Shown here: positions 1 through 38,064 of the stretch, piece by piece | How positions within the stretch are numbered: the stretch's first letter is position 1 | How the letters are laid out: each line of letters starts with the position of its first letter | DNA from: Brasilonema sp. CT11 | Lineage (GTDB): Bacteria > Cyanobacteriota > Cyanobacteriia > Cyanobacteriales > Nostocaceae | DNA: 64,000 bases | Assembly (NCBI RefSeq): GCF_017982655.1 | Contig: NZ_JABXYX010000008.1 | Span: 59,348 to 123,347 of the forward strand | Direction of reading: 5' to 3' | Notes under the pieces: generated by a model | Databases searched by the model: none | The model's input: only the letters and a program-made list of their open reading frames with translations | Told to the model about the DNA's origin: nothing | Position numbers and translations under genes: made by a program

Positions 1-1885
1 AGTCAGTTTCCTTTGGATGTTTATTTAAAATATTAAATGCTGTCTTGTAAGCTTTAATAGCTTGCTCATTTTTATTTGTTTGAGCTAAAAAACTGCCTTG
101 AATTTTGTAGAACAATACTTGAATCTGTCGTAAGTCAGCTTCTTTCGCTTTTTTATCGGCTTCTGCTATGTGTAAATTTGTCTCGCTTTTCTCAATTTTC
201 TCTTTTGCTTCTTTCGGTTTTTTCAACTGTTGATATGCTTGGGATTGAGCAGCAAATACTAGTGCTTGTTTTAAGGAATAATTATCAATGTTAAAAGATA
301 AGGCAGATAGCCTTAGAGCTTCGTTGTAATATGAATTCGAGGAATTCTGATTTTCTAATTCTCCGGCTAGTTTATTTAATTGCTTAACAGCTTTAACTTC
401 TTCCAAAGTTTCATTGAGTTGCTTTTTCGACAATAGCCCTACAGTTGCTGCTCCTAAAATTGCTACAATTACAACAACAACTCCAATACTAATTCGTCGT
501 TGAGCTTTCTTATTAGCTTCCCTAAGCATTTTATTTCTTGACTCTGCTGCTTCTTTGTCTTTCCTTTCTCTCTCCAAAGCAGCTTTTTGTTCTGACGCAG
601 CGATTTTCTCTTGAATTTCTTTCTCTTGGCTAGCAGCTAAATACTGTTTATCTTGATAACTTAAATTTTTCTCTTTCGCCCATTCAAGAGCTTCTTGTAA
701 TGCCTTGCCCCGCAATAATCGTGATTCATCAGTTCCTCCAGAATCTACCCAACCACGGAAATTCTCTGAATATGGACGCAGGTTATTTAACTGAGTTTCA
801 ATCCAATTAAGGTCAAATATTTGTTGATAAATGCGGTTATAAACTTTTAACTTTTCCTGTCTTTTAACAACTAATCCCGATAACTGCAATTCATTGACTT
901 CAATACTATTATTGCTAGCTATTTCTCCTTTTTTTCGAATTTGTTGATACAATTCCAGCAGATAACTAGCGCGTTGCCCATGTGAAAGAATCCGATCTCG
1001 TATGGTTCGCAAGTGTTCTGGATCATCCTGAGATTCCCAGTTTTCAATAATCCTCGATGTTACTACTTCCCCAACTGAACGACGATTATCCTTAAAAGAC
1101 TCCTCAACCATAAACTTACACAACTTTTGAGTCAGAAATGGTTGTCCACCTGTCCAATCTAAGATTGACTCCATGACTTGTTCGGGATTTGATACTATGC
1201 CTTGCAATCCGTTGATCAGCGGTTGGACTTCATCAATACGAAAACCATGCAGTTCAATTCCTTCTCCAATATTAAAAGGGGTTTGGGTTTTATCAGTTAT
1301 CAAATCGCTGGGAGTCGCCACCCCCAACAAAGCAAACGTCAACCGCTCAAATATCGGATTATCAACTCGTTGATTTTGAAAGAACCGAATCAGAGCAAAA
1401 AAATCATCCAGAGAAAAATCTTGACTCAGTACCCTGTCAATTTCATCGACAAAAATGACTATCGGTTGCTGAATTTTTTCCAGTAAGACTTCTTCGATAA
1501 ACAATCTCAAGCACGTGACTGGATCTAGTATTGATTGTTTTTTTTGCCACCATGTCTGCCAATCAAAATCAAATTTATCTTCCAACTGGCAACTTTCTAC
1601 CAAACCGTAAACAATGCCCCCATACCACTGTGATAGTGTTACCTTGTGCTTACCAATCCCTGTCAAATCTATCGCCGCACAGACAGTCCCTTCTGATTGC
1701 AACCGTTGCATCGTCTGCACCCGCAAGCTAGACTTACCCATCTGCCGGGAATTCAGCACGTAACAAAATTTCCCGGCTCGTAATTTTTGGTAAAACTCCT
1801 CGTCCGCTTCTCGGTGCACATAGCTCTTAGCATCAACCGGAAGACTTGCACCTAGTTGATAGAAGTTGGAACTGCTGGCTACCAC
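1..1885 (-). CDS. AAA-like (AAA_35 type) ATPase with transmembrane helix, partial at window edge
   Basis: The reading frame is open from a GTG at 1885 to the left edge, about 628 codons, with no stop seen. The N-terminal third is an AAA_35-type NTPase domain: the Walker A-like stretch is SRQMGKSSL and the Walker B is VIFVDEID. Around residues 460-485 there is one strongly hydrophobic segment rich in Val and Ile, which predicts a single membrane helix. It is preceded by a charged coiled-coil-like stretch and followed by helical, TPR-like sequence. The GTG is chosen because AAGGAG lies 9 nt upstream and an in-frame TGA sits just before it. The gene begins 13 nt after the stop of the CHAT-AAA gene, so the two are probably cotranscribed and the SD lies on that stop. 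Family knowledge: such proteins often carry C-terminal WD40 or TPR repeats, which may lie beyond the window. The exact role is unknown; a signalling or STAND-like function is inferred. Confidence 0.8.
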   Translation of the reverse strand, partial: MVASSSNFYQLGASLPVDAKSYVHREADEEFYQKLRAGKFCYVLNSRQMGKSSLRVQTMQRLQSEGTVCAAIDLTGIGKHKVTLSQWYGGIVYGLVESCQLEDKFDFDWQTWWQKKQSILDPVTCLRLFIEEVLLEKIQQPIVIFVDEIDRVLSQDFSLDDFFALIRFFQNQRVDNPIFERLTFALLGVATPSDLITDKTQTPFNIGEGIELHGFRIDEVQPLINGLQGIVSNPEQVMESILDWTGGQPFLTQKLCKFMVEESFKDNRRSVGEVVTSRIIENWESQDDPEHLRTIRDRILSHGQRASYLLELYQQIRKKGEIASNNSIEVNELQLSGLVVKRQEKLKVYNRIYQQIFDLNWIETQLNNLRPYSENFRGWVDSGGTDESRLLRGKALQEALEWAKEKNLSYQDKQYLAASQEKEIQEKIAASEQKAALERERKDKEAAESRNKMLREANKKAQRRISIGVVVVIVAILGAATVGLLSKKQLNETLEEVKAVKQLNKLAGELENQNSSNSYYNEALRLSALSFNIDNYSLKQALVFAAQSQAYQQLKKPKEAKEKIEKSETNLHIAEADKKAKEADLRQIQVLFYKIQGSFLAQTNKNEQAIKAYKTAFNILNKHPKETD

Positions 1886-1898
1886 TTTTCAAAACTCC

Positions 1899-3572
1899 TT
1901 ACAAGACGCGGCGGAAATACTCACGGTAAAGTTGGCAACGGGGTGTAACATAATTATTATGTTTTTGTACCAACCCCAAACTGTGTAATTTATAGATAAG
2001 CATTGGATCTAATTCTACTTCTACATTTGAATTAACGACTCGTTTAAAACTTGTTTGCAGTTCTGGTACTGTTTGTAAAACTCCCAATAGAGATCGTAAG
2101 TGATTATTATAAATCCCTGCTTCTGTTGTCGCCGATTGTAATAAATTTTTGAGAGCGACTTTCCCCATTGCAATTTCATACATCGCCAACCGCAACAGGT
2201 AGGGGTGTCCTCCTACCATTGTCCCTAATTCTTCTAAAACAGCATCCGCATCTTGTATTCCGTGTTTTCTTATCAATTCTCTAGTCTGTTGTTGATTAAA
2301 CTCTTCAAGTTCTACAGGTAATCCAGCATTAAAAGGAGATTGATGGACATCTAAAGGAATGTAAACTTCCGTCGAATGCGCTAGAACTAAATGTAGTTTT
2401 TTCCAAATATCAGAAGTTTTCCCTTTCTCATGCCAAGAACGTAACAATCCTAAAAAATCTTCCACCACTTCACTATAAGTAAATAATCTATCTACTTCAT
2501 CTAAACCTAAAACTACATGTTGATTAATTTTAGCTAAAATATACTTCTTAAAATAAGCTGTACAATTATCGTTGCTACCGAGAATGTTCAGATTCCATAC
2601 TTCGGAAACCTTATTTTCCAGGTTTAGCTCATCACTAACCCTGACACAAAACCAACGTAAAAAGTTATCAAGATTTGTTAATATTGCTTTGTCTATACTA
2701 CCCAAGTCTAAATAAACTGATTGCGCATTCTGTTGAGCAGCGTCAGCCATAAGCCTAGTCAATAAAGAAGTTTTCCCCATCAGTTTTGGCGCTTTAATCC
2801 GAATTAGGGAACCAGGCTTCAAGAGTGTTTCGTAAACAGACTTAATGCCATCTTGTTCTATATAAAAAGGTGAGATAAGTGGCACAGAGCCATCGGGATA
2901 TTCTAATTCCATAACTGGAGAAGAGTTATATATATTATTTCCGTCAGTTGCTCGTTCAATATGTATACTTGTCGCTGGTTCCGGTTTTGGATTCTCAATC
3001 CATTCAAGTTTTCTTTTCAAGACTGGTATCTGCCCCTGTGAAACATCTTCCATTTGAATGGCAACCAATCCTTCTTCAAAAGCCCTCTGAATAATATCAA
3101 GACTATCTGGATTTTCGTACCCTAGTCCATCATAAAATCCAATAGCAAATACAATCGCTGCTTTGTCACCAATCGGCTGATTCATGCCGATTGTATAATT
3201 AATATGTTGGCTAATAGCCACTGCCGATTTTTCGGAATAACAGGCGTTAAGTAACACACACTTAACATGATTGGCGTGTAGCTTAAATAATGCTGCTAAT
3301 GCGAATGCTGAAACAGCTTTATGATTTCCCGAGTCATCTTCTAATGCTAAGCTGCCATCCTCCATTCCATGTCCACAAAAATGCACAATTTGAGGAAGTT
3401 CTTCTGCTAAAGCCCGACGAATATCTTGGGGGCGTACAGCAGTTCTAATTTTAATTTCCCACTTATCTCTTTTGACTCCCCGTCTAATAGCTTCAACTAT
3501 ATCCCGAATTTCTTTATCCAAACGTAATCCCTCTGGGATTGCTGTCAAAATTAATACTTTATCCAAAGACAT
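1899..3572 (-). CDS. CHAT-domain (caspase-like) protein fused to AAA_35 NTPase
   Basis: The protein has 557 residues. Residues 1-195 form a CHAT caspase-like protease domain with the expected His68 in HFCGHG and Cys111 in LLNACYS. Residues 225-557 form an AAA_35-type NTPase with Walker A APKLMGKTS (261-269; the usual leading Gly is Ala) and Walker B VVLGLDEVD (353-361). The start ATG has GGGGAG 9 nt upstream. It overlaps the small upstream ORF by 14 nt and is followed 13 nt later by a second AAA_35 gene, so a three-gene transcription unit is likely. CHAT proteases are known effectors in bacterial defence and cell-death pathways; the target here is not evident. A paralogue with an added TIR domain lies at 61005-63128. 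The gene is inside what appears to be the end of a CRISPR-associated transposon and so may be cargo. Confidence 0.85.
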   Translation of the reverse strand: MSLDKVLILTAIPEGLRLDKEIRDIVEAIRRGVKRDKWEIKIRTAVRPQDIRRALAEELPQIVHFCGHGMEDGSLALEDDSGNHKAVSAFALAALFKLHANHVKCVLLNACYSEKSAVAISQHINYTIGMNQPIGDKAAIVFAIGFYDGLGYENPDSLDIIQRAFEEGLVAIQMEDVSQGQIPVLKRKLEWIENPKPEPATSIHIERATDGNNIYNSSPVMELEYPDGSVPLISPFYIEQDGIKSVYETLLKPGSLIRIKAPKLMGKTSLLTRLMADAAQQNAQSVYLDLGSIDKAILTNLDNFLRWFCVRVSDELNLENKVSEVWNLNILGSNDNCTAYFKKYILAKINQHVVLGLDEVDRLFTYSEVVEDFLGLLRSWHEKGKTSDIWKKLHLVLAHSTEVYIPLDVHQSPFNAGLPVELEEFNQQQTRELIRKHGIQDADAVLEELGTMVGGHPYLLRLAMYEIAMGKVALKNLLQSATTEAGIYNNHLRSLLGVLQTVPELQTSFKRVVNSNVEVELDPMLIYKLHSLGLVQKHNNYVTPRCQLYREYFRRVL

Positions 3573-3756: not shown

Positions 3757-4370
3757 AACTTTTACAGATCTGAGGCTGCTTTGAAACAGTATCCAAACAA
3801 ATTTACAAATGTATAAAATACTATTCCAGAATTGATACTATCAATTTCAGCTTGATTTTGATAGCCTGATTCATAGAGGAATCCGGTTTGATTTGGTGAA
3901 CGAACTCGTAGGGGGAGGGAACGCTTAACAGGGAACAGGGAACAGGAAAGAAGAAATAAAGCTGTACCTAGCTTCGTCAAAACTCAAATAGGAATCCTAA
4001 GAGCGATCGCTCTTAGGATTGCTTTCCTCAGCACAATCTTGTACAAAATTGTATATTTACTCACAATTGGTAATGTTACAAAAAAATTGCCATGAAGCAA
4101 TGGGAGCGATCGCTCTGACTCACTGTAGAAACATAACTCCCTGAACCCACAATCCGTCTTAACGGACTTGCGATACGCGCAGCGTCAAGCCAAGGGCTTA
4201 TCGCCCGCGCCCCCCCAAATAGCATTTTCCGCGCCAACTGATTACTGACATTGGATACTCTCGCATCGCCACATCAATGGTCATAACGTCATACCGTGGA
4301 TCAAATGATCGCCTGTTTTTAATTGGAATTAGCACTGCCAATTGGGTTGTAGAATCTCATTTAGCTTCAA
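3757..4370. other. 614-bp spacer inside presumed transposon end, no gene recognised
   Basis: No convincing gene is visible. The stretch holds a perfect 28-bp palindrome at 3993-4020, a second GCGATCGC site near 4106, and a copy of a dispersed palindromic repeat around 4165-4205 (gcgatacgc...cttatcgccc), also seen near 16130, 31137 and 49330. An open frame on the minus strand at 3762-3980 looks like translated repeat DNA. I see no cas12k or tns gene remnant here. Confidence 0.5.
3993..4020. repeat. perfect 28-bp palindrome centred on a HIP1 site
   Basis: The 12-base arms AATCCTAAGAGC and GCTCTTAGGATT flank GATC, so the whole 28 bp is self-complementary with a GCGATCGC core. It lies about 240 bp upstream of the small ORF and CHAT-AAA genes. 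It could be a protein-binding site or simply a HIP1-nucleated palindrome. Confidence 0.6.
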
Positions 4371-4407
4371 AGTTTTTGGAGGGTTGAAAGGCGCGCCAGT
4401 TTGAAGT
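4371..4407 (+). ncRNA. delocalised type V-K CRISPR repeat-spacer (homing crRNA) targeting tRNA-Pro
   Basis: The stretch 4378-4390 reads GGAGGGTTGAAAG, which matches the 3' end of type V-K (Cas12k) CRISPR repeats as I remember them (GGGTTGAAAG). The next 17 nt, 4391-4407 (GCGCGCCAGTTTGAAGT), match the tRNA-Pro gene at 4665-4649 on the minus strand at 14 of 17 positions; the mismatches are spacer bases 9, 14 and 15. The genomic target is preceded by GGTA, which fits the Cas12k PAM (GTN). The element terminus lies 60 bp beyond that PAM. Type V-K elements are known to carry a separate short repeat-spacer of this kind for homing beside tRNA genes. The promoter and any tracrRNA are not visible in the window. 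Confidence 0.8.
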
Positions 4408-4437
4408 TTTAGAAAATTTTCATAGGTAAATTAAAAT

Positions 4438-4466
4438 GAGGTATGTGGTTCAAAACCACATGCCTC
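4438..4466. repeat. 13-bp hairpin next to the transposon end
   Basis: The 13-nt arms 4438-4450 and 4454-4466 pair completely, with one G-T pair, around a 3-nt loop. No T-run follows on either strand, so it is not a typical terminator. It sits between the crRNA-like unit and the first TnsB-like repeat and could end the crRNA transcript or be structural. Confidence 0.5.
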
Positions 4467-4483
4467 ACTCTGAACTCAGTCAG

Positions 4484-4605
4484 TGACATTAATTTGTTAA
4501 CGGCTGTCAGGAGTCACCCGACGACATTAATTTGTTAAAACGACAGATAATATGTTAATAACGACATTAATCTGTTAACGACGACAAATAATGTGTTATT
4601 CGACA
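4484..4605 (-). mobile_element. terminal TnsB-binding repeats and TGT end of a Tn7-like (type V-K CAST) transposon
   Basis: Five related 17-19 bp repeats, read on the minus strand as TTAACAxATTAATGTCG variants, start at 4484, 4522, 4541, 4562 and 4582; the last four are spaced about 20 bp. The outer edge on the minus strand begins TGTCGAATAACAC, giving the 5'-TGT terminus of Tn7-like elements at 4605, only 8 bp from the end of the tRNA-Pro gene. The arrangement and sequence closely resemble the ends of cyanobacterial Cas12k transposons as I recall them. The element must extend leftward. Its transposase genes (tnsB, tnsC, tniQ, cas12k) and other end are not in this window, so it may be complete beyond the edge or a decayed remnant. 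Confidence 0.85.
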
Positions 4606-4613
4606 TCTATCAA

Positions 4614-4687
4614 TCGGAGCGGCGGGATTCGAACCCACGACCTCCACTACCCCAAAGTGGCGCGCTACCAAGCTGCGCTACGCCCCG
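4614..4687 (-). tRNA. tRNA-Pro (GGG anticodon)
   Basis: The 74-nt cloverleaf reads 5' CGGGGCGTAGCGCAGC and ends with acceptor strand CGCTCCG plus discriminator A; CCA is not encoded. The anticodon stem is CCACT/AGTGG with loop TTGGGGT, giving anticodon GGG (Pro, CCC/CCU). The T arm contains GGTTCGAATCC. The D-stem to anticodon region (4649-4669) is the apparent target of the homing crRNA at 4391-4407. The gene itself is intact because the element inserted just past its 3' end. Confidence 0.95.
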
Positions 4688-4739
4688 CAGTCAACTTTCC
4701 AACCATAACATCAAAAACCACAATTATCAAGACCTCAAT

Positions 4740-5105
4740 TTAAAAAACTTTGAGCATCTGGGAGGCTTTCAACAAACCAGCAACAGCGGAATCATCCCAT
4801 TTACCTTCTGCACAACGCCCTGTTTTCAGGATAAAACGCAGACTATAGGCATGAGGATAACCTTCGGCTTCCATCCATAATAAATCGCTTTCAGCTTCAC
4901 AGGTAATCTTTTCCTCATCCATTAATTCAGTTGCAATTTGCCGAATGGTGTCTGCTAGTTGCGTTAGTAGCCGACAAAAATCATTCAATTCAGCTTCAGT
5001 TAACTCGATCGCCCAATCATCTGTACCCACTAAACCTTTGAACTCTGGCGCTGCTGGGTTCCAGCCGATACGCCAACCAAGTCCACTTTTGAGAACACGT
5101 TCCAT
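4740..5105 (-). CDS. DUF1818 family protein
   Basis: The protein begins MERVLKSGLGWRIGWNP and continues LVGTDDWAIELTEAELNDF, which matches the cyanobacterial DUF1818 family, a small soluble alpha/beta protein of unknown function about 120 residues long. The frame is open a further 12 codons upstream, but the family usually starts at the Met at 5105, so 121 residues are proposed. No clear Shine-Dalgarno precedes either start. It stands alone, 52 bp from tRNA-Pro, with repeat DNA upstream. Confidence 0.75.
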   Translation of the reverse strand: MERVLKSGLGWRIGWNPAAPEFKGLVGTDDWAIELTEAELNDFCRLLTQLADTIRQIATELMDEEKITCEAESDLLWMEAEGYPHAYSLRFILKTGRCAEGKWDDSAVAGLLKASQMLKVF

Positions 5106-5559
5106 AAAAAAGTTTTGAATTTTCAGTAGTAAGTAGCTCAACTTAATTAAACGTGAAATGTCATTACGAGCGGAACGGAGTGTAGCGAAGTAATCGCAAA
5201 GATTCTATTTTACGTTTTTCAATGTTGACCTACTTATCATATCAAGTCCGGTTAATCACTTATTATTCGTCATTGCGAGTGAAACGAAGCAATCGCAATG
5301 GTTTGAGATTGCTTCACTCCGCTATCGCTGCGTATGCCCAGAGGGCACGCTACGCTAACGCAATGACAACTCATCATCCGGACTTGATATCATCTATGGT
5401 TAAAATTTTAATTTCTATCCCAATTTTCCGTTGTGGTTGGAGATGCTTCACTACGCTGTCGCTCCGTTCAGCATGACATTTTTGACTTCTCAGACATCCT
5501 CTAAGCGTCCTTTGAGTGCGCCGCCTTAGGGGCTAGCTCTGAGGAATTAGGCGGTTAGC
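5106..5559. other. repeat-filled spacer between DUF1818 gene and mutY
   Basis: No gene is recognised. The spacer holds a partial GCGAGCGGAACGGAG-type repeat at about 5165-5210, the nested inverted-repeat element at 5239-5390, and a further related fragment near 5440-5480. The 3' end carries a GC-rich repeat (cgccgccttaggggctagc) that resembles one near 34065-34085. Confidence 0.6.
5239..5390. repeat. nested miniature inverted-repeat element
   Basis: Perfect 13-bp outer inverted repeats (atatcaagtccgg at 5239-5251 and its complement at 5378-5390) enclose a second palindrome, 5269-5367, that begins GTCATTGCGAG and ends CGCAATGAC. The inner palindrome is the same family as the one at 63163-63246. 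No ORF is present, so this is a non-autonomous element or one repeat nested in another. Confidence 0.7.
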
Positions 5560-6684
5560 CTAATGATAGTTCGCAAAAAGTTTAAAAACTTTGTTGTCTA
5601 ATGAAGTGGAAAGTTTTGAACCAACAACACTTCTTGGAACCCAGTCAAAAGATTGTGACAAACCAAGTTTCTGCCAAAGAACACTCTCTGTAGTGATGCT
5701 TGGGTTTTCCAACTCCTGCACGACGAGAACTTTTCCTGAAATCCGATGATGGGTGATATTGTGTGAAAATTTGCTAGACAGTTCCAAAAATTGAAGATGT
5801 TGCAGAGATTGAAGAACCTGCTTGACTTCTGAAGCTTCAGTTGCAGAGATTAATGGAAACCCGACAGTGTTGGAGAGAAATCCTTTTGTTCTGTGGACTA
5901 TCGCCACTGTATCTGTTCCCTTTCTCCAAAACACCAAAGCAAACAACTCCACATCCACCGTATCACGTCGTGGTTTTTTGGGAGGACAAATTTCAACACA
6001 ATTGTGTGCAAAAGCCAAACACTCTTTCTGTATTGGACACAAAAGACACAGAGGTTTCGATTTACGACAGACAGTAGCTCCTAACTCCATTATTGCTTGG
6101 TTAAAGTCACCAGGACGTTCCTCAGGAATCATCTGATCTACATGAGTTTGAATTGCTGATTTTCCAGAAGAACTCCACACATCCTCAGATAAACTAAGCA
6201 AACGACTCACAACTCGCACAACATTACCATCAACACAGGCAACTTTTTCATTGAAGCAAATACTTGCAATCACAGACGCCGTGTAAGATCCACAGCCAGG
6301 AATTTTCAACCACTCATGGTATGATTGTGGAAAATGACCTTCCAACTCCTCAACAATAAACTTTGCACCTTTGTTTAAATTACGGGCACGAGCATAATAG
6401 CCTAATCCTGACCAAAGTTGACGCAATATCTCTTCATCACAACTGGCAAGATCATAAACAGTAGGAAGGTGCTTAACAAATTCTGAGAACTTTGGCACAA
6501 CCACAGCCAGAGTAGTTTGTTGACTCATCACCTCACACACCCAGGTGTGATAGATGTTGATTTTCTGACGCCAAGGCAATGGTCTGCAATGGCGATCGTA
6601 CCACGCTAGGAGTTTCTGGGCACATTGATTCACTGTCCAACCTTTGTTGAGTGCAAGATAAATCCTAGCAATGTCAAAACCCAT
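5560..6684 (-). CDS. mutY: A/G-specific adenine DNA glycosylase MutY
   Basis: The protein has 374 residues. It carries the HhH-GPD glycosylase core, the catalytic-type Glu in CEVMSQQT, the helix-hairpin-helix IPGCGSYTA, the catalytic Asp in CVDGNVVRVVSR, and the 4Fe-4S cluster motif C-x6-C-x2-C-x5-C in CRKSKPLCLLCPIQKEC. The C-terminal 120 residues match the NUDIX-like 8-oxoG recognition domain in position. MutY removes adenine mispaired with 8-oxoguanine. It is monocistronic here, with a 34-residue membrane peptide gene upstream on the same strand. Confidence 0.9.
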   Translation of the reverse strand: MGFDIARIYLALNKGWTVNQCAQKLLAWYDRHCRPLPWRQKINIYHTWVCEVMSQQTTLAVVVPKFSEFVKHLPTVYDLASCDEEILRQLWSGLGYYARARNLNKGAKFIVEELEGHFPQSYHEWLKIPGCGSYTASVIASICFNEKVACVDGNVVRVVSRLLSLSEDVWSSSGKSAIQTHVDQMIPEERPGDFNQAIMELGATVCRKSKPLCLLCPIQKECLAFAHNCVEICPPKKPRRDTVDVELFALVFWRKGTDTVAIVHRTKGFLSNTVGFPLISATEASEVKQVLQSLQHLQFLELSSKFSHNITHHRISGKVLVVQELENPSITTESVLWQKLGLSQSFDWVPRSVVGSKLSTSLDNKVFKLFANYH

Positions 6685-6739
6685 CTCATAATTGAAATGG
6701 GTTTTGTAAAGTTATTTTCTAAAAATGAGAGTTATTGCT

Positions 6740-6844
6740 TTAGAAAAGATTCATGAGAGTGATGACACCAGCGCTGGTGAGCATGACCAAAGCTCCCATA
6801 ACTAAAGACTGGTTCAGTTGGTTTGGAGTTTTGGAACCGTTCAT
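6740..6844 (-). CDS. 34-residue single-helix membrane protein
   Basis: This short ORF begins MNGSKTPNQLNQSLVMG and is followed by a hydrophobic helix ending at ITLMNLF. AGGGAA lies about 8 nt before the ATG. The shape (short polar N-terminus, one membrane helix) resembles small photosystem or thylakoid subunits, but I do not recognise a specific family. Codon structure and the SD favour a real gene. Confidence 0.5.
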   Translation of the reverse strand: MNGSKTPNQLNQSLVMGALVMLTSAGVITLMNLF

Positions 6845-7071
6845 GTGTATAATTCCCTAATTTTAAAGATTTCATTAAGAGTAACAGTTTTGCTCTCATA
6901 TATGAAGAAAAACATAGTAAAACTTAAAAAAGCTTAACCTAGGTTAACAAATGCAGCAGTTTTTACTTAACTCAAGATAAAGACTTCTGCAAAACTGTCT
7001 CACATGTAAAGTTTTGTGTAGATTCTTGTAAATAACCTGTTACACATATCACCTCCCCAGTTTTCCTGTAT

Positions 7072-8331: not shown

Positions 8332-11300
8332 CTAATCATTTGGCAGCAACCAACCTTTTACAATTGCCTTTGCGACCTTAAGATACTTGTTCTCCAATAA
8401 AAATTCTTCAATTGCTGTTTCACTTCCTTGGGCAAGTGCTGAAATAACCCTCTGCTTGATTCCTGGATTAGTAGCAGCATTAACATAAGCCACCTGCTCA
8501 GCCTCAGTTGCAGTAGGATTTGTTAGCTCAAGTTGCTTTAGAAGTCGTTGAATTTCAGCAGCAGCTTCCGCAAGGGTTTGCTTTTGCTCAGACGTGTAAA
8601 TATTTTGGTTTGCTTGCTGTCGCGCATTATCGGTAACTTTATTGGCAAAGTTACCGATAATAGCTGCTCTAAAGTCATTGTTAAAAGTTTCTGACATAAT
8701 ATTTATGGTAAGTTTTGATGATGTGGGATCTAGGATAGTCACAATCTGAAGAATATCTTCTGGCTGAGGTGGTTGCCAAGTTTTACGACGAGCCAAAGCT
8801 TCTGCCTCTAATAGCCGCCAGTGTAATTCGCTTTCTAGTTCCGGCAGTTCACGGATGATTTTTCGCAGTGCATCACAAGCTTCTGGAGTTCCGCGCTGTT
8901 GAAGACGCTGCGGAATATAGTTTTTCCACATCCTGACACCATCAATTTCTCCTATTTGAGCTTGTATACCACTGAGTTCCTTCGCCTCGTGTTCACGCTC
9001 TTCAATCTCTGGGTATTGTTGGGCAAGAAAAATATACAAATCGGCTAAATATTCTTCTTTAAGCTGCTGTTCAATTTGACCTTTGGCAGCAGCTTTTAAA
9101 GCGATTGACTCTAATACTTCCCGTCCAAATTCGGGATTTTGCTGTATTACAGACCATACAGCTAACCAGGTAGGATTATCAGCATGAGTGACAAGCAAAC
9201 CGGCAGCTACAACTGCTTTAGCTCTTGCTTCCCCTGAGTAAATTACTGAAGGAGATATAAAAGAAACCGCGAAGATTCTAGCTTCATCTATTTCTTGACT
9301 GAACATATCTGCCAATAAGATTTCCAACATGCCAGCGTTCAACTCTTCATCTTTGACCTTGTTAAGTATTGGCTTTGCTAGAGGTTCATCCAATAAATTT
9401 TTAGTTAAACGATAAACATCATTGAAATCAAAACTATGAGGCTGATAATTGCGTTGAATCATCAAAACTATCAGTGTTTCTATAAACTCATTAGGAATAC
9501 TTTGATATGCTGTCCGTACTATTTCTCCACAGTGTTCATTATTTTCTTCTGTATCTCTGTCAGAAAAACTTATAGACTTAAAAATAATTGGTATCCACTT
9601 TACCCATATATTAGGATAAATAGTTGAAATGAAGTTTGGCTCTTGCTTCGATAAGAGATGAAGTGCCTGATAGCCAGCAAATGGAGGATGAGAAAAATTA
9701 TTTGTTCCAAGCCATGTTTGAGTTTTTGGCTCTCCAGCATCAAGATAAACTTTTGCTGTTTTGACAATCCTTACTTTTGTATCTGCTTCTGCTTCTTCCC
9801 ACCCAGGAAGTTTTGTTACATCTGGTTCAAAAACCTTATGGATATTGTAACGAGTGCTAGTTGGTCTAAGTGTCATTTCCCGACACACTTGCCACCATAG
9901 CTCAGGATGATCTGATTCAATCCGTTCTAAAGCTGCAACTACTCTCTGCTTTGGTGGTGGTTCCAGCAAAGGTTTTTGTTTACGAGGGTTTAACAAGTTT
10001 TGTGATTTTAGGTAGCTCACCTTTTCTTGTTCGGCTCTCGCAAATGCAAATTCTGCTTTCAAAGTAGAATTATGCTGACTAGCCGTAATAACAGCGCTCA
10101 CTTGGTCTGAATTCTTCCAATCCAGTTTCCAGCATATCAACTTGGCATAAATCTTTTGTACATGCTCAGATTTGGATGACCCCAAACTTTCAATCAGCCA
10201 CAAGAAATCTTGTTCCAAAGGGGTTAACGAAATATATTGACTATCTCCAGCTAACCACAGCGGCTCTTGCTCCGAATCTGGGAGGATTGAAATAATTGCT
10301 TGTATAAGTTGACGGCGCTTATAGTCGTCAACTTCTAACTGTTGTTTAAATGATAAATTTTCAGTTTTATTTGTGACCTCACTAATTTCGTCATAATTCT
10401 TCAGTCTTAAATAAGCGATTTTGGCGAATCCTTCAAGGATTTCTGGTTCTTCAAAATGCTCCCATGCCTTCAGCATTATGGTATCGGAAAGCTCACAAAA
10501 TGGATAATCAAGCTCATGTCTAGACGGTTGTTTATCAAGCCATTTGAGTGCCGCTGGCAAATCAGGTAACTTGAGACGCTGTGCAAATTCTTCCGCTATG
10601 AAGTCCTGATATACACCATTAATAATAGGTATAGCACCTCTTGATTTTGGTTGTGAGAGACTATCCAACAACTCCTGAACCGTCATATGTTTTGACCAAA
10701 CAGCCCGAAGACCATACCCTCTAAGATCGTCTTCCGGATCATCTCCAGCTTCGCCAAGTGCAAGAGGTTTCAACCGAGCTTTAGTTTGCTCATCTGCGTT
10801 TTCACAAATAGTAAATGCTGCGTCTACGCGAACCCAAAGATGTTGTTGAGGATCGAGAGCAACCGAAGCAAGGCTGTTCTGCACAGCTTCAACGCAACAG
10901 GCTCTTGCAATGTCAATTGCTACTCTCCGTGCATTTATATCTTTATCGGAATCTTCAATATAACTTTGAAGTTGCTCAGAAAGTTTTGGGTGATTCAGAT
11001 TTCTATACTCCCAAGTTCCACACTGATAAGAAAGCTTTCCTTCGTCGTGTAGTTTTAGCAGCGAATCAACCAAAGTAAATTTATCTGCCTCATCAGCCGT
11101 TGATATATCACTTTGAAGCAGTACATCTGGATCAGTTTTTACAATCTCCTGAAATACTTCAGGTATCATGCTTGAAAGCCAAGCTGTAGTTTCCTGTAAT
11201 TGAGGAACTACTCTGCAATCAGGATGAATAATCCATTTCAGAATTTGAGGTAAATTGACCTGATGTTGTTTCAAATACCATGCAGCCAAAAATTCAGCGT

Positions 11301-12390
11301 AGGTTTGATGTGCCCATCCCATCCGGTACAGTCCACGCGATGAAAACAAACCAGTATCCAGAACCTCTTCTATCCCTGCCTCAGTGACTTCAAACTCTCT
11401 TCCATTAGCACATTCATGTCCCCAGCACAGCTTTCGGCGCAACACATCTTCCTTTGGAACATCGCCCTGATTAATACCAGTCCAGACTGCAAAACGATTG
11501 GCAAAGACCGTCACGGCTGCAATCCGAGCCGCAATAATTAGACGCTGATCGATTTCTAGCTCGCCCTTAAGACCTGAAGCTTGACGATTTGGATTAATTT
11601 CTTCGCATAGAAGTCTACATCCGTCGAGATACAAATCACACAGGGTTTGATTTGGGAGGAATTGACCACTGTGGCGGTAAGTATTAAGCAGAAATTTAAG
11701 TGTGACTGGTTTAATAGCTAGGGGAACAACATTTTTTTTCCAAACTTCTTCCAAAAAATCTTCAGACTTGACTCCTTCACTTGCTGCGGCTAACGTCACA
11801 TCTGTACGGCGAAGAGGTGCTAATTCATATACTCCTACGCCATCTTTTCCCCAAATATGCTTCAGTTCTTCTTCAAGAGTGATCAACCTTGACCAAACAG
11901 CAGTTCGGCATGTGATACGAAGAAATAGGCGTTTTGCTTGCTCCTGATATTCTTGAAACTCATCAGCCAATAATGCTGCTAGATTATCTATCCGTAGCAA
12001 ACACTCATCAAGGCTATCCAAAAAAATATGCAGGCGGTGAGTACTTTCTACCCAAGCTTGAAATTTTGAGCTTTCAAATAATTTCTTAATCAGTCTATCT
12101 TCGCTTCCGCATGAAGGAAGATCCAAAGTAAGTTCATCATCACCCTTTGCTTTGATTGCACGGAAAATCTTTGCTTGCTCTGCCTTTATCGTCTTGGTTT
12201 TGCCAATTCCTGGTTCACCCAAAAGCACCAAACAAGGTAGATGAGAAATTTGCTCAAAACTCACCAGATCTGGATTATATTCTCTTGTCCATTTACTATC
12301 TGGGTCGTATAAATAACCACCATCGGCAAGGTTAATATGACCAGACCGAGGACACCAGAAACGCTTCCAACCGTAAACCTGCTCTGACAT
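8332..12390 (-). CDS. large NACHT/STAND-type NTPase with long helical C-terminus
   Basis: About 1352 residues are encoded. The N-terminus has an unusual Trp/Cys/Gly-rich stretch (GWKRFWCPRSGHINLADGGY), then the NTPase with Walker A GEPGIGKTKT and Walker B HIFLDSLDE of the NACHT type within the first 140 residues. The remaining 1000 or so residues are mostly helical with Ala/Glu/Leu-rich segments suggestive of HEAT-like or TPR-like repeats. The ATG at 12390 is preferred; a TTG eight codons upstream at 12414 extends the frame. No strong SD is visible. Such STAND proteins often act as sensors in programmed cell death or phage defence; that is inference. It is divergent from sbcD and no effector domain is recognisable. 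Confidence 0.8.
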   Translation of the reverse strand: MSEQVYGWKRFWCPRSGHINLADGGYLYDPDSKWTREYNPDLVSFEQISHLPCLVLLGEPGIGKTKTIKAEQAKIFRAIKAKGDDELTLDLPSCGSEDRLIKKLFESSKFQAWVESTHRLHIFLDSLDECLLRIDNLAALLADEFQEYQEQAKRLFLRITCRTAVWSRLITLEEELKHIWGKDGVGVYELAPLRRTDVTLAAASEGVKSEDFLEEVWKKNVVPLAIKPVTLKFLLNTYRHSGQFLPNQTLCDLYLDGCRLLCEEINPNRQASGLKGELEIDQRLIIAARIAAVTVFANRFAVWTGINQGDVPKEDVLRRKLCWGHECANGREFEVTEAGIEEVLDTGLFSSRGLYRMGWAHQTYAEFLAAWYLKQHQVNLPQILKWIIHPDCRVVPQLQETTAWLSSMIPEVFQEIVKTDPDVLLQSDISTADEADKFTLVDSLLKLHDEGKLSYQCGTWEYRNLNHPKLSEQLQSYIEDSDKDINARRVAIDIARACCVEAVQNSLASVALDPQQHLWVRVDAAFTICENADEQTKARLKPLALGEAGDDPEDDLRGYGLRAVWSKHMTVQELLDSLSQPKSRGAIPIINGVYQDFIAEEFAQRLKLPDLPAALKWLDKQPSRHELDYPFCELSDTIMLKAWEHFEEPEILEGFAKIAYLRLKNYDEISEVTNKTENLSFKQQLEVDDYKRRQLIQAIISILPDSEQEPLWLAGDSQYISLTPLEQDFLWLIESLGSSKSEHVQKIYAKLICWKLDWKNSDQVSAVITASQHNSTLKAEFAFARAEQEKVSYLKSQNLLNPRKQKPLLEPPPKQRVVAALERIESDHPELWWQVCREMTLRPTSTRYNIHKVFEPDVTKLPGWEEAEADTKVRIVKTAKVYLDAGEPKTQTWLGTNNFSHPPFAGYQALHLLSKQEPNFISTIYPNIWVKWIPIIFKSISFSDRDTEENNEHCGEIVRTAYQSIPNEFIETLIVLMIQRNYQPHSFDFNDVYRLTKNLLDEPLAKPILNKVKDEELNAGMLEILLADMFSQEIDEARIFAVSFISPSVIYSGEARAKAVVAAGLLVTHADNPTWLAVWSVIQQNPEFGREVLESIALKAAAKGQIEQQLKEEYLADLYIFLAQQYPEIEEREHEAKELSGIQAQIGEIDGVRMWKNYIPQRLQQRGTPEACDALRKIIRELPELESELHWRLLEAEALARRKTWQPPQPEDILQIVTILDPTSSKLTINIMSETFNNDFRAAIIGNFANKVTDNARQQANQNIYTSEQKQTLAEAAAEIQRLLKQLELTNPTATEAEQVAYVNAATNPGIKQRVISALAQGSETAIEEFLLENKYLKVAKAIVKGWLLPND

Positions 12391-12568
12391 TTGAGTAATT
12401 CGTAGAGCAAACAAAAACTTACATGTTTAAAGATAACATGACCAATGGCACGCTCGATAAGCTAAAGTCTCTAAGTATAGTCTATTGAAATGCAGACTGC
12501 TGTAAGCGATAGTATGATTAGCTTGGCAATTTAACGTCAGATAGTCAGGTAAAACTTGAGAGAAATGT

Positions 12569-13822
12569 ATGATTAAAATCCTCCACCTATCCGATATCCA
12601 CATGGGAAGCGGATTCTCCCACGGACGAATTCATCCTGAAACAGGATTGAATACACGCTTAGAGGATTTTGTCAATACTCTATCTCGATGTATTGACCGA
12701 GCCTTGGCAGAACCAGTAGATTTGGTTTTATTTGGCGGTGATGCTTTCCCCGATGCGACACCGCCGCCGTATGTACAAGAAGCGTTTGCTGGTCAGTTTC
12801 GCCGCCTTGTCGATGCAAATATCCCTACAGTCCTGTTAGTAGGAAACCACGATCAACACACCCAAGGACAGGGTGGAGCCAGTCTATGTATTTACCGTGC
12901 TTTAGGAGTTCCGGGAGTTGTTGTAGGTGATACCTTAACCACTCATCGCATCCAAACCCGCAATGGAAGCGTGCAGATTATCACCCTTCCTTGGCTAACC
13001 CGTTCCACGCTGATGACTCGCCAGGAAACAGAAGGTTTTTCTTTGGCGGAAGTCAACCAACTGCTGACTGAACGTCTGCGGGTTGTTCTAGAAGGAGAAA
13101 CTCGCCGCCTTGACCCCAATGTGCCAACTGTTCTTTTGGGTCATTTGATGATGGATAATGCAAATTTGGGAGCGGAGCGTTTTCTCGCAGTTGGTAAAGG
13201 CTTTACACTTCCCTTATCTTTACTGACGCGACCTTGCTTTGACTACGTAGGCTTAGGACACGTCCATCGCCATCAAAACCTGAATAAATCTAATAACCCT
13301 CCCGTGATTTATCCAGGGAGTATTGAGCGGGTGGACTTCAGCGAAGAGAAAGAGGACAAAGGCTACGTCATGGTAGAACTGGAGAAAGGTCGTGTTCAGT
13401 GGGAATTTTGTCCTTTACCAGTGCGAACTTTCCATACAATTGAGGTAGATGTTTCTAAAACTGAAGATCCGCAGGCGGCGATCATGAAAGCTTTAGCGAA
13501 GCGTGATATCCAAGATGCTGTTGTGCGGCTCATTTACAAACTTCGCTCTGAGCAATTAGATTTAATTGATAGCGCCTCGCTGCATACTGCTTTAACTCCA
13601 GCGCATACCTACACCATTCAACCAGAATTGGTTAGTCAGTTAGCTCGACCCCGTGTTCCAGAATTAAGCGCGAGTAATAGCATCGACCCGATAGAAGCGC
13701 TAAGAACTTACTTGGACAACCGCGAAGACCTCAAGGACATAGCAGCATCAATGCTGGAAGCAGCACACAACTTGCTAGCAGATGATATGGAAGTTTGGCT
13801 AGAATCAGCTACTCAGGAATAA
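12569..13822 (+). CDS. sbcD: SbcD-like DNA repair exonuclease (calcineurin-like phosphoesterase)
   Basis: The 417-residue protein starts MIKILHLSDIHMG and has the metallophosphoesterase motifs LSDIH, GGDAFPD, VGNHDQH, LLGHLMM and GLGHVHRH in order, typical of the nuclease subunit of SbcCD/Mre11-Rad50. The C-terminal capping region is present. GAGAG lies before the ATG. No sbcC gene is next to it, which is common in cyanobacteria. It is divergent from the NACHT gene across a 178-bp spacer. Confidence 0.88.
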   Translation: MIKILHLSDIHMGSGFSHGRIHPETGLNTRLEDFVNTLSRCIDRALAEPVDLVLFGGDAFPDATPPPYVQEAFAGQFRRLVDANIPTVLLVGNHDQHTQGQGGASLCIYRALGVPGVVVGDTLTTHRIQTRNGSVQIITLPWLTRSTLMTRQETEGFSLAEVNQLLTERLRVVLEGETRRLDPNVPTVLLGHLMMDNANLGAERFLAVGKGFTLPLSLLTRPCFDYVGLGHVHRHQNLNKSNNPPVIYPGSIERVDFSEEKEDKGYVMVELEKGRVQWEFCPLPVRTFHTIEVDVSKTEDPQAAIMKALAKRDIQDAVVRLIYKLRSEQLDLIDSASLHTALTPAHTYTIQPELVSQLARPRVPELSASNSIDPIEALRTYLDNREDLKDIAASMLEAAHNLLADDMEVWLESATQE

Positions 13823-16570: not shown

Positions 16571-16777
16571 ATGACAACTTCTACACATCCGTTGTCGGTG
16601 CAGCAAGATTTGACCAACTCACCTTGGTGGGCTGGTAACTTTCGTCTCACCAATCTATTAGGTAAATTACTGGGCGCTGATGTTGCCCATGCTGGATTGA
16701 TTTTGTTATGGGCTGGGGAAATAACGCTGTTTGAGGTGTCCCGCTTCAATCCTCATCAGCCAATGTATGAGCAATAG
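16571..16777 (+). pseudogene. truncated CP43/IsiA-family chlorophyll-binding protein (N-terminal fragment)
   Basis: The 68-residue product contains [32 protein letters not shown] and the ending NPHQPMYEQ. This is the N-terminus and first membrane helix of the CP43/IsiA/Pcb antenna family. Intact members have about 340-460 residues and six helices, so everything after helix 1 is missing. A TAG follows the YEQ, and there is no remnant of later helices before the next gene 92 bp downstream. The break looks clean, as from a deletion. A hydrolase gene next to isiA is known in other cyanobacteria and is retained here. It might instead be a functional one-helix protein, but that is less likely. Confidence 0.65.
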
Positions 16778-16869
16778 CTCACAGTTAACTGCTAACTTCT
16801 TTTATTACTGTTAGCGATTCATAAGCTTGACGAGAAATTGACAACTCTAATTACTTACAGGATAAATCA

Positions 16870-17601
16870 ATGTCTAAACAACCAGAAGCCATTTGGTTGA
16901 ACACAAGCCCTAGTTTGTTATGCTTTGCTCAACCATTGTTGCGTGAACTGTCACGTTCTGTAACTATTGCCCAGTGGGAATATACACAAACTAAGGATGA
17001 ACCTAGTTCCTTAGATGTTGCAATACTGCTGCTGGATGAATATCTTCAATCAATCAAGCAACCTGTGCATCTGATTGGTCACAGCACGGGAGGATTACTC
17101 GGGCTACTATATACACGTCGGTATCCAGAAAAAGTTAAATCTTTAACCCTATTAGCTGTGGGTGCTGATGCAGCAGTTGACTGGCAAGCTCATTACTATA
17201 GCCATCGCCCATCCTTGACTCGGGAAAAAATTCTCAATGCAATGGTATATAACTTATTTGGCTATCAGACTGAGCACGCTGTCAAGCGTCTAGAGAAGAT
17301 TTTAGAACAAGACTTAGATTGCTCGCTCTCACCTCACTCCCTGTTTAAACGACAAAGCGTGGTTCCCTGTCCAGTCCCTGCGCCTTTAATGGTTTGTGGT
17401 AGCACTAACGATATCATTGTAGAACCCGACGCCCTGCAAGGATGGCGACCGTTTTTGATGGAGGGCGATCGCTATTGGGAATGTCAAAAAGGACGGCATT
17501 TCTTTCACTTCTTCCAGCCGACTCTTGTAGCAGAACAGATTCTCGACTTCTGGCAATCTCTATACCAAATCTCTAAAAAACCACTACAGATCAGAAAATA
17601 A
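16870..17601 (+). CDS. alpha/beta hydrolase (isiA-linked, IsiC-like)
   Basis: The 243-residue protein has the alpha/beta hydrolase nucleophile elbow GHSTGG (in LIGHSTGGLLG), a later Asp in the NDIIVEPD stretch and a terminal His in KGRHFFHFF, which make up a plausible Ser-Asp-His triad. AGGA lies before the ATG. It follows the truncated CP43/IsiA-like fragment; an alpha/beta hydrolase accompanies isiA in some cyanobacterial iron-stress operons, so it may be IsiC-like. Substrate unknown. A hairpin candidate terminator lies 84 bp downstream. Confidence 0.75.
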   Translation: MSKQPEAIWLNTSPSLLCFAQPLLRELSRSVTIAQWEYTQTKDEPSSLDVAILLLDEYLQSIKQPVHLIGHSTGGLLGLLYTRRYPEKVKSLTLLAVGADAAVDWQAHYYSHRPSLTREKILNAMVYNLFGYQTEHAVKRLEKILEQDLDCSLSPHSLFKRQSVVPCPVPAPLMVCGSTNDIIVEPDALQGWRPFLMEGDRYWECQKGRHFFHFFQPTLVAEQILDFWQSLYQISKKPLQIRK

Positions 17602-17684
17602 CTCTAGGGGTGTCCATAAAGACGCTCACATTGCACCAAAGTTATCCCGTAGCCAAGCGATCCGCAGTTTGCGCGATTGGGCAA

Positions 17685-17718
17685 AACCCTAAGTTCAGCA
17701 GCAAGGGAACTTAGGGTT
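17685..17718 (+). terminator. candidate intrinsic terminator after the hydrolase gene
   Basis: The 12-bp perfect stem AACCCTAAGTTC / GAACTTAGGGTT has a 10-nt loop and is followed by GTTTATT. The T-tract is weak, so termination strength is uncertain. Confidence 0.5.
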
Positions 17719-17887
17719 GTTTATTAAGAATTGTCTCTTTTTTTGTATTGAAAAATACACTTCTTGCCGCCATTTACAGAAATATTTTTAATTTCTCATA
17801 TTTATTAAAATGAGCAGTTTCTGCAAAGCTTGTAATTTAAGGTAGGAAATATTCATAGTTGGTGAAAATTTCAGTCGGACATAGTGT

Positions 17888-18697
17888 ATGAGAATTACAT
17901 ACCAAAATCAGCAAAAACAAACTGCCCTAATTACAGGGGCAGCTAGTGGTATTGGTTACGAATTAGCACACCTTTTTGCCCGTGATAGTTACAATCTTGT
18001 CTTAGTAGATAAAAATGGACAAAAACTCTCTGAAATAGCGGAAGAATTTCCAAAAAAGTTCGGCATTTATGTGATAAAGATTGTTAAGGATTTATCTATT
18101 CCAACCGCCCCAGAAGAAATTTTTACAGACTTGCAACAAGCATCCATAAAAGTTGATGTGCTGGTGAACAATGCTGGATTTGGGAGTTATGGCTTATTTT
18201 ACGAAACCAACCTCGCTGCTGAGATGGAAATGTTACAGGTCAATTTGGTATCTTTAACTTATTTAACGAAATTATTCTTAAAGGATATGGTCAATCAAGG
18301 CAACGGAAAAATATTAAATGTTGCCTCCACCGCTGCATTTCAACCAGGACCTTTAATGGCGGTTTATTCCGCTACTAAAACTTATATTTTATTCTTTTCA
18401 GAAGCGCTAGCTAATGAGTTAAAAGATACAGGTGTCACTGTGACTGTTCTTTGTCCAGGACCGACAGAATCTGCTTTTCATAAAATAACCGGGATGGCTG
18501 ACTCTGAACTGCTCAAAAACAAGAAGATGATGAGTGCAGAAAGTGTAGCCAAAATTGGCTATGCTGGTTTATTGGCGAAGGCAACTGTTGTTATTCCGGG
18601 TGTAAAAAATAAGATACTCGCTGAATTAGTAAGATTTACTCCCAGAAAGCTAGTGACAGAAGTAGTAAGAAGTATGCATGAGGGAAAAATAACCTGA
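17888..18697 (+). CDS. short-chain dehydrogenase/reductase (SDR)
   Basis: The 269-residue protein has the nucleotide-binding motif TGAASGIG near the N-terminus, NNAG in the middle (VLVNNAGFGSYG), the Ser of ASTAA and the catalytic YSATK. These define a classical SDR that uses NAD(P)H. The substrate cannot be told from sequence; best resemblance is to general DltE/YqjQ-like oxidoreductases. It appears monocistronic. Confidence 0.85.
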   Translation: MRITYQNQQKQTALITGAASGIGYELAHLFARDSYNLVLVDKNGQKLSEIAEEFPKKFGIYVIKIVKDLSIPTAPEEIFTDLQQASIKVDVLVNNAGFGSYGLFYETNLAAEMEMLQVNLVSLTYLTKLFLKDMVNQGNGKILNVASTAAFQPGPLMAVYSATKTYILFFSEALANELKDTGVTVTVLCPGPTESAFHKITGMADSELLKNKKMMSAESVAKIGYAGLLAKATVVIPGVKNKILAELVRFTPRKLVTEVVRSMHEGKIT

Positions 18698-36832: not shown

Positions 36833-37780
36833 CTAACCTAGCGCCTCAGCACCACCAACAACCTCTAGGATTTGCTGGGTAATTGCGGCTTGCCGCGCTT
36901 TGTTGTAAGACAAAGTGAGGTTACCAATGAGTTCTTTGGCGTTGTCGCTAGCATTGCTCATTGCTGTCATCCGTGCCGCAAGTTCGCTGGCAGCTGATTC
37001 TTGCAACGCCCGCAAAAGCTGGTTACTCAGATACAGAGGTAGTAAGGAATCGAGAATCTGTACTGGATCTTGCTCGAAAATCATGTCACTGGATAAAGTA
37101 CGGGTTTGAGCGGTTACTTTCTCTCGTGTGACTTCAAATTCACCTCCACGGGTTGTTAAGCGGAAAATTTCGTCATCCTGTGCTTCCAAACCTTGAGTGT
37201 CAAGAGGAAGCAGCGTTTGCACTACCGGACGAGAACTCACCAAGGAGACGAACTTGGTGTAGACAAGCTCAATACGATCTACACTGTCTGACAAGAACAA
37301 AGAAAGCAATTCGTCAGCAATCTTGTTGGCTTCAGCAGCGGTAGGAATTTGCTCTAAACCAGTATAGGTAGCGTCTATTGGCTGTTCGCGACGTTGGAAA
37401 TACTGGGTTGCTTTGCGTCCTACGATGACAAATTTGTAGTCTACACCTTCTGCTTTGAGTTCTTTGGCGCGATTTTCAGCACGTTTGATAACGTTGTTGT
37501 TGTAGCCGCCGCACAAACCGCGATCGCCTGAAATCACTAACAGCCCTACTGATTTGACTTCCCGTTTTCTCAGCAGTGGTAAGTTTGCTTCTTCAAAACG
37601 CAGACGAGTTTGTAGACCGTACAGAACTTGCGCCAAGCGGTCGGCGAAGGGACGGGTGGACAGTACCTGTTCTTGAGCGCGACGCACACGCGCTGCAGCT
37701 ACCAGCCGCATGGCTTCTGTAATTTTTTTGGTATTTTTTACTGATTGAATGCGATCGCGTATTGCTTTGAGATTTGCCAT
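36833..37780 (-). CDS. atpC: ATP synthase F1 gamma subunit
   Basis: The 315-residue protein begins [20 protein letters not shown] and ends in the rotor helix with the conserved AMSNASDNA. It has the cyanobacterial insertion near residues 195-230 ([17 protein letters not shown]) without the redox cysteine pair of plant chloroplast gamma. It forms the central rotor stalk. It is the last gene of the operon and is separated from atpA by 284 bp of repeat DNA. Confidence 0.96.
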
Positions 37781-38064
37781 ACTCTTTTACAACAATTTAG
37801 AATTTAGAATTCAGGAGTTAGGAGGAAGCTATCTTCTAACTTCTAACTCCTAACTCCTGTTTTAGTACAATTGCCAGGAAGGTTTTTTATTCAGAATTCT
37901 AAAGTCAACACAGAACTAACATGTTTTAGCTGACTCCTGAACGCCCTTCGGGTTCGCCAGTCGCCTGCGGAGGGAAACCCTCCCGCAGCGCTGGACTCAC
38001 CAGACACCTACGGAGGGAGACCCTCCTGCATGGCTAGCGCTCCTCCTGACTTCTTACTCCTGAT
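37781..38064. repeat. repeat-filled spacer between atpA and atpC
   Basis: The spacer contains aactcctaactcctg-type tandem pieces (37825-37860) and, at about 37941-38040, two tandem copies of the dispersed palindromic repeat cgccttcgg...cagtcgcctgcggaggg. No gene or terminator-like T-tract is visible, so the operon may read through. Confidence 0.6.

Follow-up and report, generated by a model that had tools for sequence, protein, structure and literature searches.

Layout of the tRNA-Pro(GGG) site

The window, the 64,000-nucleotide stretch of Brasilonema sp. CT11 DNA that was analysed (genome G000, contig C22, positions 59348 to 123347; window position 4343 is C22:63690), carries an intact tRNA-Pro(GGG) gene on the minus strand (4614-4687), the attachment gene of the feature described here. 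A tRNA-side transposon end with a truncated CRISPR repeat and an anchor spacer spans positions 4343-4605. The truncated repeat (R*) is a 12-nt guide handle, GAGGGTTGAAAG, on the plus strand at 4379-4390, identical in the congeners G001 and G002; its last 10 nt, GGGTTGAAAG, occupy 4381-4390. It is followed on the same strand by a 17-nt homing (anchor) spacer, GCGCGCCAGTTTGAAGT (4391-4407), which matched tRNA-Pro at 14 of 17 positions. The protospacer, GCGCGCCACTTTGGGGT, lies inside the tRNA gene (4665-4649, minus strand), with a GGTA PAM (GTN, here GTA) at 4669-4666 on the minus strand, a position which we take to be the D-loop of the tRNA.

The end itself covers 4484-4605 on the minus strand and begins at 4605 with TGTCGAAT... 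(TGTCG; terminus TGT at 4605-4603), 60 bp from the PAM. It contains five repeats that resemble TnsB-type repeats and are putative TnsB binding sites; their starts on the minus strand, set by sequence and converted from contig coordinates, are 4599, 4578, 4558, 4538 and 4500. A target-site duplication would be expected at 4606-4610 (TCTAT), for which no partner copy was found. On the other side of the unit, positions 4343-4349 (plus strand) aligned with the 3'-most 7 nt of the last CRISPR repeat of G001 and G002. All coordinates in the first-pass annotation were correct, and recomputation returned the solitary repeat end, the spacer with its match to tRNA-Pro, the PAM, the TGT terminus and the five repeats as it had described them.

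In type V-K systems a truncated repeat-spacer guide directs Cas12k to a tRNA gene, and TnsB, TnsC and TniQ insert the element downstream. According to an excerpt of PMC9938897, the V-K left end lies downstream of the tRNA gene and points at it, the truncated repeat measures about 12 nt, the spacer is usually 17 nt long, the PAM is GTN, and the distance from PAM to end is 46-82 nt, with one exception of 147. In the naming of that excerpt, the end in the window is a left end. An excerpt of PMC11406308 describes V-K attachment sites as mostly tRNA genes and the guide as nearly always truncated and set apart from the others. Features that mark a V-K left end were present at the site: a repeat of about 12 nt with a 17-nt spacer, a tRNA protospacer with a GTN PAM, a spacing within 46-82 nt, and a TGT terminus with TnsB-type repeats. 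With its 12 nt, 17 nt, GTA and 60 nt, the window is like the V-K CASTs with an anchor spacer in the PMC9938897 excerpt, but it differs from them in having no array, cas12k, tns genes or far end, and in three guide mismatches. It likewise resembles the Tn7-CRISPR-Cas12k units of Hsieh and Peters (2021, as cited in the PMC11406308 excerpt) in a guide that is set apart from the array and aimed at a tRNA attachment site, but the window holds a remnant and not an element.

Between the guide and the end lies a 14-pair hairpin (4437-4467; z -7.5 and -7.1), with CATTTT after it on the minus strand. Its sequence suggests that it would act as a terminator for read-through from tRNA-Pro, and it may replace a tRNA terminator that the insertion would have separated from the gene. 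By a stricter test, which counted uninterrupted pairs, the stem was 18 pairs long in both G001 and G002, as against 8 in the window. The hairpin was considered as a general CAST feature and this was rejected: the 18-pair stem occurred in G001 and G002 only, of 32 loci (30 plus L003 and L004), and in the other 29 the stem had at most 10 pairs, no more than in shuffled sequence (up to 12). A search for promoters in 4200-4800 found weak matches to the consensus.

Surroundings of the end and other CASTs of the genome

The first-pass annotation had looked to V-K machinery or a second end nearby; neither was found on C22 by the gene, array and opposite-end searches. In the whole genome, cas12k was found on contigs C256 and C368 only, and both TniQ and Mu-transpos_C (TnsB) on C296 and C368 only. 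The TniB profile (TnsC), which also had matches in 13 of 14 control genomes, gave five matches, namely C296, C368 and long frames on C376, C380 and C11, and none on C22. With tnsB, tnsC and tniQ from each of the two resident CASTs as queries, together with the cas12k of one of them (CAST#1), tblastn returned zero matches at E<=1e-3 on all of C22. No CRISPR array was present on C22, where a scan for the handle gave only the unit in the window and one GTTGTTGAAAG at 91408. A search of C22:50000-63700 (13.7 kb) with four site models, allowing up to 3 mismatches, found no opposite end, and C22:30000-64100 contained no convincing TCTAT+TGT partner; when the whole contig was scanned for exact copies of the end motif, a single isolated one turned up at 87253, beyond the possible element. 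Of the parts of a complete element, the site has neither cas12k with an array, nor tnsB, tnsC and tniQ, nor an opposite end with a target-site duplication. A complete but unseen element on C22 was rejected since the searches for machinery and opposite end were empty, and the feature is called a remnant because both are missing nearby.

The homology to G001 and G002 stops at about 4342/4343, inside the last CRISPR repeat of these relatives, which by alignment carry at that place a longer repeat ending TTTCAACAACCATTCCGGCTAGGGGTGGGTTG. On this sequence evidence, the boundary was taken as a putative deletion junction. To its left, C22 continues with unrelated DNA and then with chromosomal genes shared with G004, G002 and G001, to C22:58271. 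A CHAT-AAA_35 gene and a neighbouring AAA_35-GUN4 gene are found at window positions 1-3572 (L154:669-4920). PADLOC assigned chat to the CHAT-AAA_35 gene and PD-T4-6 to the GUN4-like part of the second gene, and the two are a possible defence pair at a tRNA island. They were considered as cargo of the element. A piece of the chromosomal flank of G004 and G002 recurs at C22:63242-63346 (78% over 106 bp), between the pair and the remnant, and cargo status is thus unsupported.

Two CASTs reside elsewhere in the genome. CAST#1, on C368, has a homing unit directed to tRNA-Thr(TGT) (15/17, PAM GTC, end 66 bp off), with cas12k at 37406-39277, an array, and tniQ, tnsC and tnsB about 25 kb further. It is inserted in an older CAST-like end beside the same tRNA-Thr(TGT) (L014:7610-7659 and L107:2050-2080; G000:C368). 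One of its flanks ends GTTAACAGATT and the other begins ACAGATTAATGTCGTCG, with ACAGATT common to both, and jointly they make up one TnsB-like repeat. This nesting is a sign of repeated use of one tRNA site, and such reuse would be expected if an insertion leaves the protospacer intact. The guide of CAST#2 matches tRNA-Arg(CCG) at 16/17 on C245 (PAM GTG, end 61 bp off, repeats present), its cas12k and like repeats are on C256, and tnsB, tnsC and tniQ are on C296; we infer that the three contigs form one element, to which C296 probably belongs. GGGTTGAAAG is common to the repeats of both resident CASTs. The site in the window is like them in layout and in the last 10 nt of the handle, and its spacing is 60 bp as against 66 and 61 bp, but they keep cas12k, tnsB, tnsC, tniQ and repeats, which the site lacks.

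Other ends of this kind were also seen. On C237 (L016:7824-12515) the distance between a CAST-like end and the GGTA of tRNA-Pro(CGG) is exactly 60 bp; no TTGAAAG guide handle was found in the 1500 bp inside that end, and a gene for an nSTAND1-WD40 protein of 1315 aa follows. C109 (L021:1182-1350) has an end beginning TGTACAGTGACTAATTATCTGTCG... at 9 nt past tRNA-Val(GAC), of a type unlike that in the window. C330 (L018:7921-8157) holds a 237-bp mini-element whose CAST-like ends are in inverted orientation (TGTCGAGTAAC... and ...GTTACCCGACA), and end pairs in opposite orientation spanning about 240 bp also occur in G177, G145 and G011. These mini-elements may form a MITE family that TnsB-type transposases mobilise.

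The end in congeners and in the family

A query made of the tRNA and the gene behind it matched 59 of 59 genomes. Thirty loci were fetched, and the tRNA was present in 29 of them (L040 was the one without). The end directly adjoined the tRNA in three of the fetched loci, those of G000, G001 and G002, all of one genus. Window positions 4343-4610 were 97% identical in G001 and G002, whose spacer, GCGCGCCACTTTGGAGT, matches tRNA-Pro at 16/17. By alignment count, G000 differs from the agreeing G001 and G002 at six positions in 4343-4605, two of them in the spacer. In G010, from another genus, a similar end was placed 90 nt further out, and G028 has an apparently worn end, judged by eye. As for related genomes without the element at this tRNA, to which the first-pass annotation had pointed as a comparison, no such end was found in the 150 nt beside the tRNA in G004, G005 and G006, but neither a target-site duplication nor an empty site with matching bases was found (the G004 flank reads ACCTT vs TCTAT in the window). 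The G003 contig breaks off 16 nt beyond this position, and that much of it resembles G004.

The copy in G002 (G002:C80, L053:4195-19830) links the unit to a V-K system. There, at tRNA-Pro(GGG), the unit is joined to V-K CRISPR repeats and to CAST genes, of which cas12k is intact and tnsB, tnsC and tniQ are broken. The L053 order toward the tRNA is tnsB (4195-5046, residues 289-574 of 576), tnsC (5166-5942, residues 17-276 of 281, with an open frame of 229 aa vs about 280), tniQ (5960-6175, residues 2-73 of 168, cut after 73 beside type I restriction genes), the type I restriction-modification genes (N6_Mtase 6180-6992, Methylase_S 8514-9806, HSDR_N 10309-12996), a HerA/FtsK-like ATPase gene between HSDR_N and Cas12k (weak matches, below cut-off), Cas12k (16663-18585, 640 aa, 942.9 bits vs a cut-off of 150), the repeats, the homing unit and the end. 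The order of tnsB, tnsC and tniQ is that of a CAST. The presence of the unit beside V-K genes in this copy shows that its counterpart in the window is of V-K CAST origin. Its broken genes suggest that the G002 copy is itself decaying, and a full ancestor is only inferred because even this copy is without half of tnsB and tniQ. G002 has two further cas12k genes, and the L053 Cas12k could in principle use the transposase that goes with them.

G001 has the guide and a possible second end, without cas12k. That second end (~18983, reverse complement of L054) is not put forward as the partner, having no matching target duplication and resembling the end of the C330 mini-element. The three congeners vary in what lies to the left of the unit. 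Together, these genomes form a decay series at one tRNA, from G002 (guide, repeats, cas12k and broken tns genes) through G001 and G000 (three mismatches) to the absence of an end in G004, G005 and G006.

A survey of 217 genomes of the family was performed with window positions 4331-4610, the tRNA excluded, as the query. The end, often only part of it, matched in 133 of the genomes, and the 30 loci with the best matches, the window, G001 and G002 included, were examined. A tRNA gene was near the end in 28 of these 30; Pro(CGG) was the commonest, and Pro(GGG), Thr, Val, Ala and Gly were also found. The first-pass annotation had held that finding the repeats at non-tRNA locations in relatives would speak against tRNA homing. 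Its reading was mostly borne out, but two of the 30 best loci were without a tRNA. A guide with a match of at least 14/17 was present at 19 of the 30, all 19 with a GTA PAM, and their spacing measured 54-61 bp, where the end could be placed to within a few bases. By the same test the other 11 best loci had no matching guide, and at L086 the guide is apparently shifted by an inserted base.

GAGGGTTGAAAGGCGC, the handle plus GCGC, occurred in 36 of the 217 genomes and its reversed form, used as a control, in 0; cas12k was above the cut-off in 121. Units without a detected cas12k, each matched to the tRNA-Pro of its own genome, were found in G001 (16/17; listed as without), G115 (17/17) and G232 (16/17), the latter two not being among the cas12k matches listed. 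In G182 a 17/17 unit with repeats is present, and both cas12k genes are more than 1 Mb away.

Probable origin of the remnant and its significance

We consider the feature, with high confidence, to be the decayed remnant of a V-K CAST that probably reached this site, 60 bp from a GTA PAM, through RNA-guided homing. The first-pass annotation had proposed an RNA-guided transposon beside tRNA-Pro(GGG). The V-K homing signature in this proposal holds, by virtue of the G002 copy, but no element is at the site now, only one broken end and a guide. In the sequence of events envisaged, Cas12k with a guide from the unit would have bound the tRNA-Pro gene, and TnsB, TnsC and TniQ would have placed the element just past the 3' end of the tRNA, leaving the tRNA intact. 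A later deletion would have taken the array, tracrRNA, cas12k, the tns genes and the far end, and the guide may then have decayed to its present match (14/17 vs 16/17 in the relatives). The mismatch alone is no proof of decay, because the guides of both resident CASTs are mismatched too. Because it has one end only, the remnant is predicted to be immobile.

A chance likeness, made up of a lone 10-mer, a partial tRNA match and AT-rich repeats, would fit a match of only 14/17 and the absence of machinery nearby. The binomial probability of at least 14 of 17 matches is 1.1e-6 per fixed comparison. There are 27 17-mers preceded by TTGAAAG on the two strands of the 123-kb contig, and among these the window spacer reached 14/17, whereas the other 26 reached at most 7/17. 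All contig 17-mers on both strands, with target and spacer excluded, included one at 13/17 and 16 at 12/17. The unit is also kept in G001 and G002, where it matches the tRNA more closely. The 27-site control and the congeners led to the rejection of chance, which has a negligible probability and had already been called unlikely in the first-pass annotation. Equally hard to credit is the end of another Tn7-like element, directed to the tRNA by TnsD/TniQ, with the guide match being secondary. Protein-guided tRNA targeting is described for type I-B2 and I-D CASTs in the PMC11406308 excerpt, and ends at a nearly fixed place past the tRNA would agree with it; against it stand the matching guides with a GTA PAM at 19 of the 30 best end loci, and it was rejected as contradicted by the G002 copy, in which the neighbours of the end are a V-K guide, repeats, cas12k and tns genes like those of V-K systems.

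In a further reading, the remnant would still function as a non-autonomous unit, with its putative guide used in trans by the Cas12k of CAST#1 or CAST#2 with their TnsB, TnsC and TniQ. Two cas12k genes and tns genes do exist elsewhere in the genome, GGGTTGAAAG is also found in the repeats of CAST#1 and CAST#2, and G001, G115 and G232 retain guide units without a detected cas12k. With no opposite end in 13.7 kb, however, there is nothing by which the remnant itself could be moved, its guide has drifted to 14/17, and the DNA to the left of the unit varies among the three congeners. We regard this reading as improbable. Its wider form, in which orphan tRNA-side guides of dead V-K CASTs would be a trans-acting stock of the genome, with resident Cas12k steering new elements by them and the remnant being a guide-carrying landing pad, is speculative and we think it unlikely to be true.

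The preferred reading, a decayed V-K CAST, places the feature among systems of a known kind, as V-K homing to tRNA genes by truncated repeat-spacer units is already described in the excerpts of PMC9938897 and PMC11406308. New are the instance in the window, the series of decay stages in a single genus and the nesting of CAST#1 at tRNA-Thr. Among the papers listed, none was recognised by title or abstract as a description of guide-only or remnant V-K CASTs, and no claim to priority is made.

If it is true that orphan guides work in trans, the view of CAST target choice would change. The remnant in the window is useful mainly as part of the decay series. The homing geometry of a V-K CAST was recognisable from about 260 bp after the machinery had been lost, and since this geometry outlasts the machinery, past RNA-guided insertions can be mapped from such fossils.
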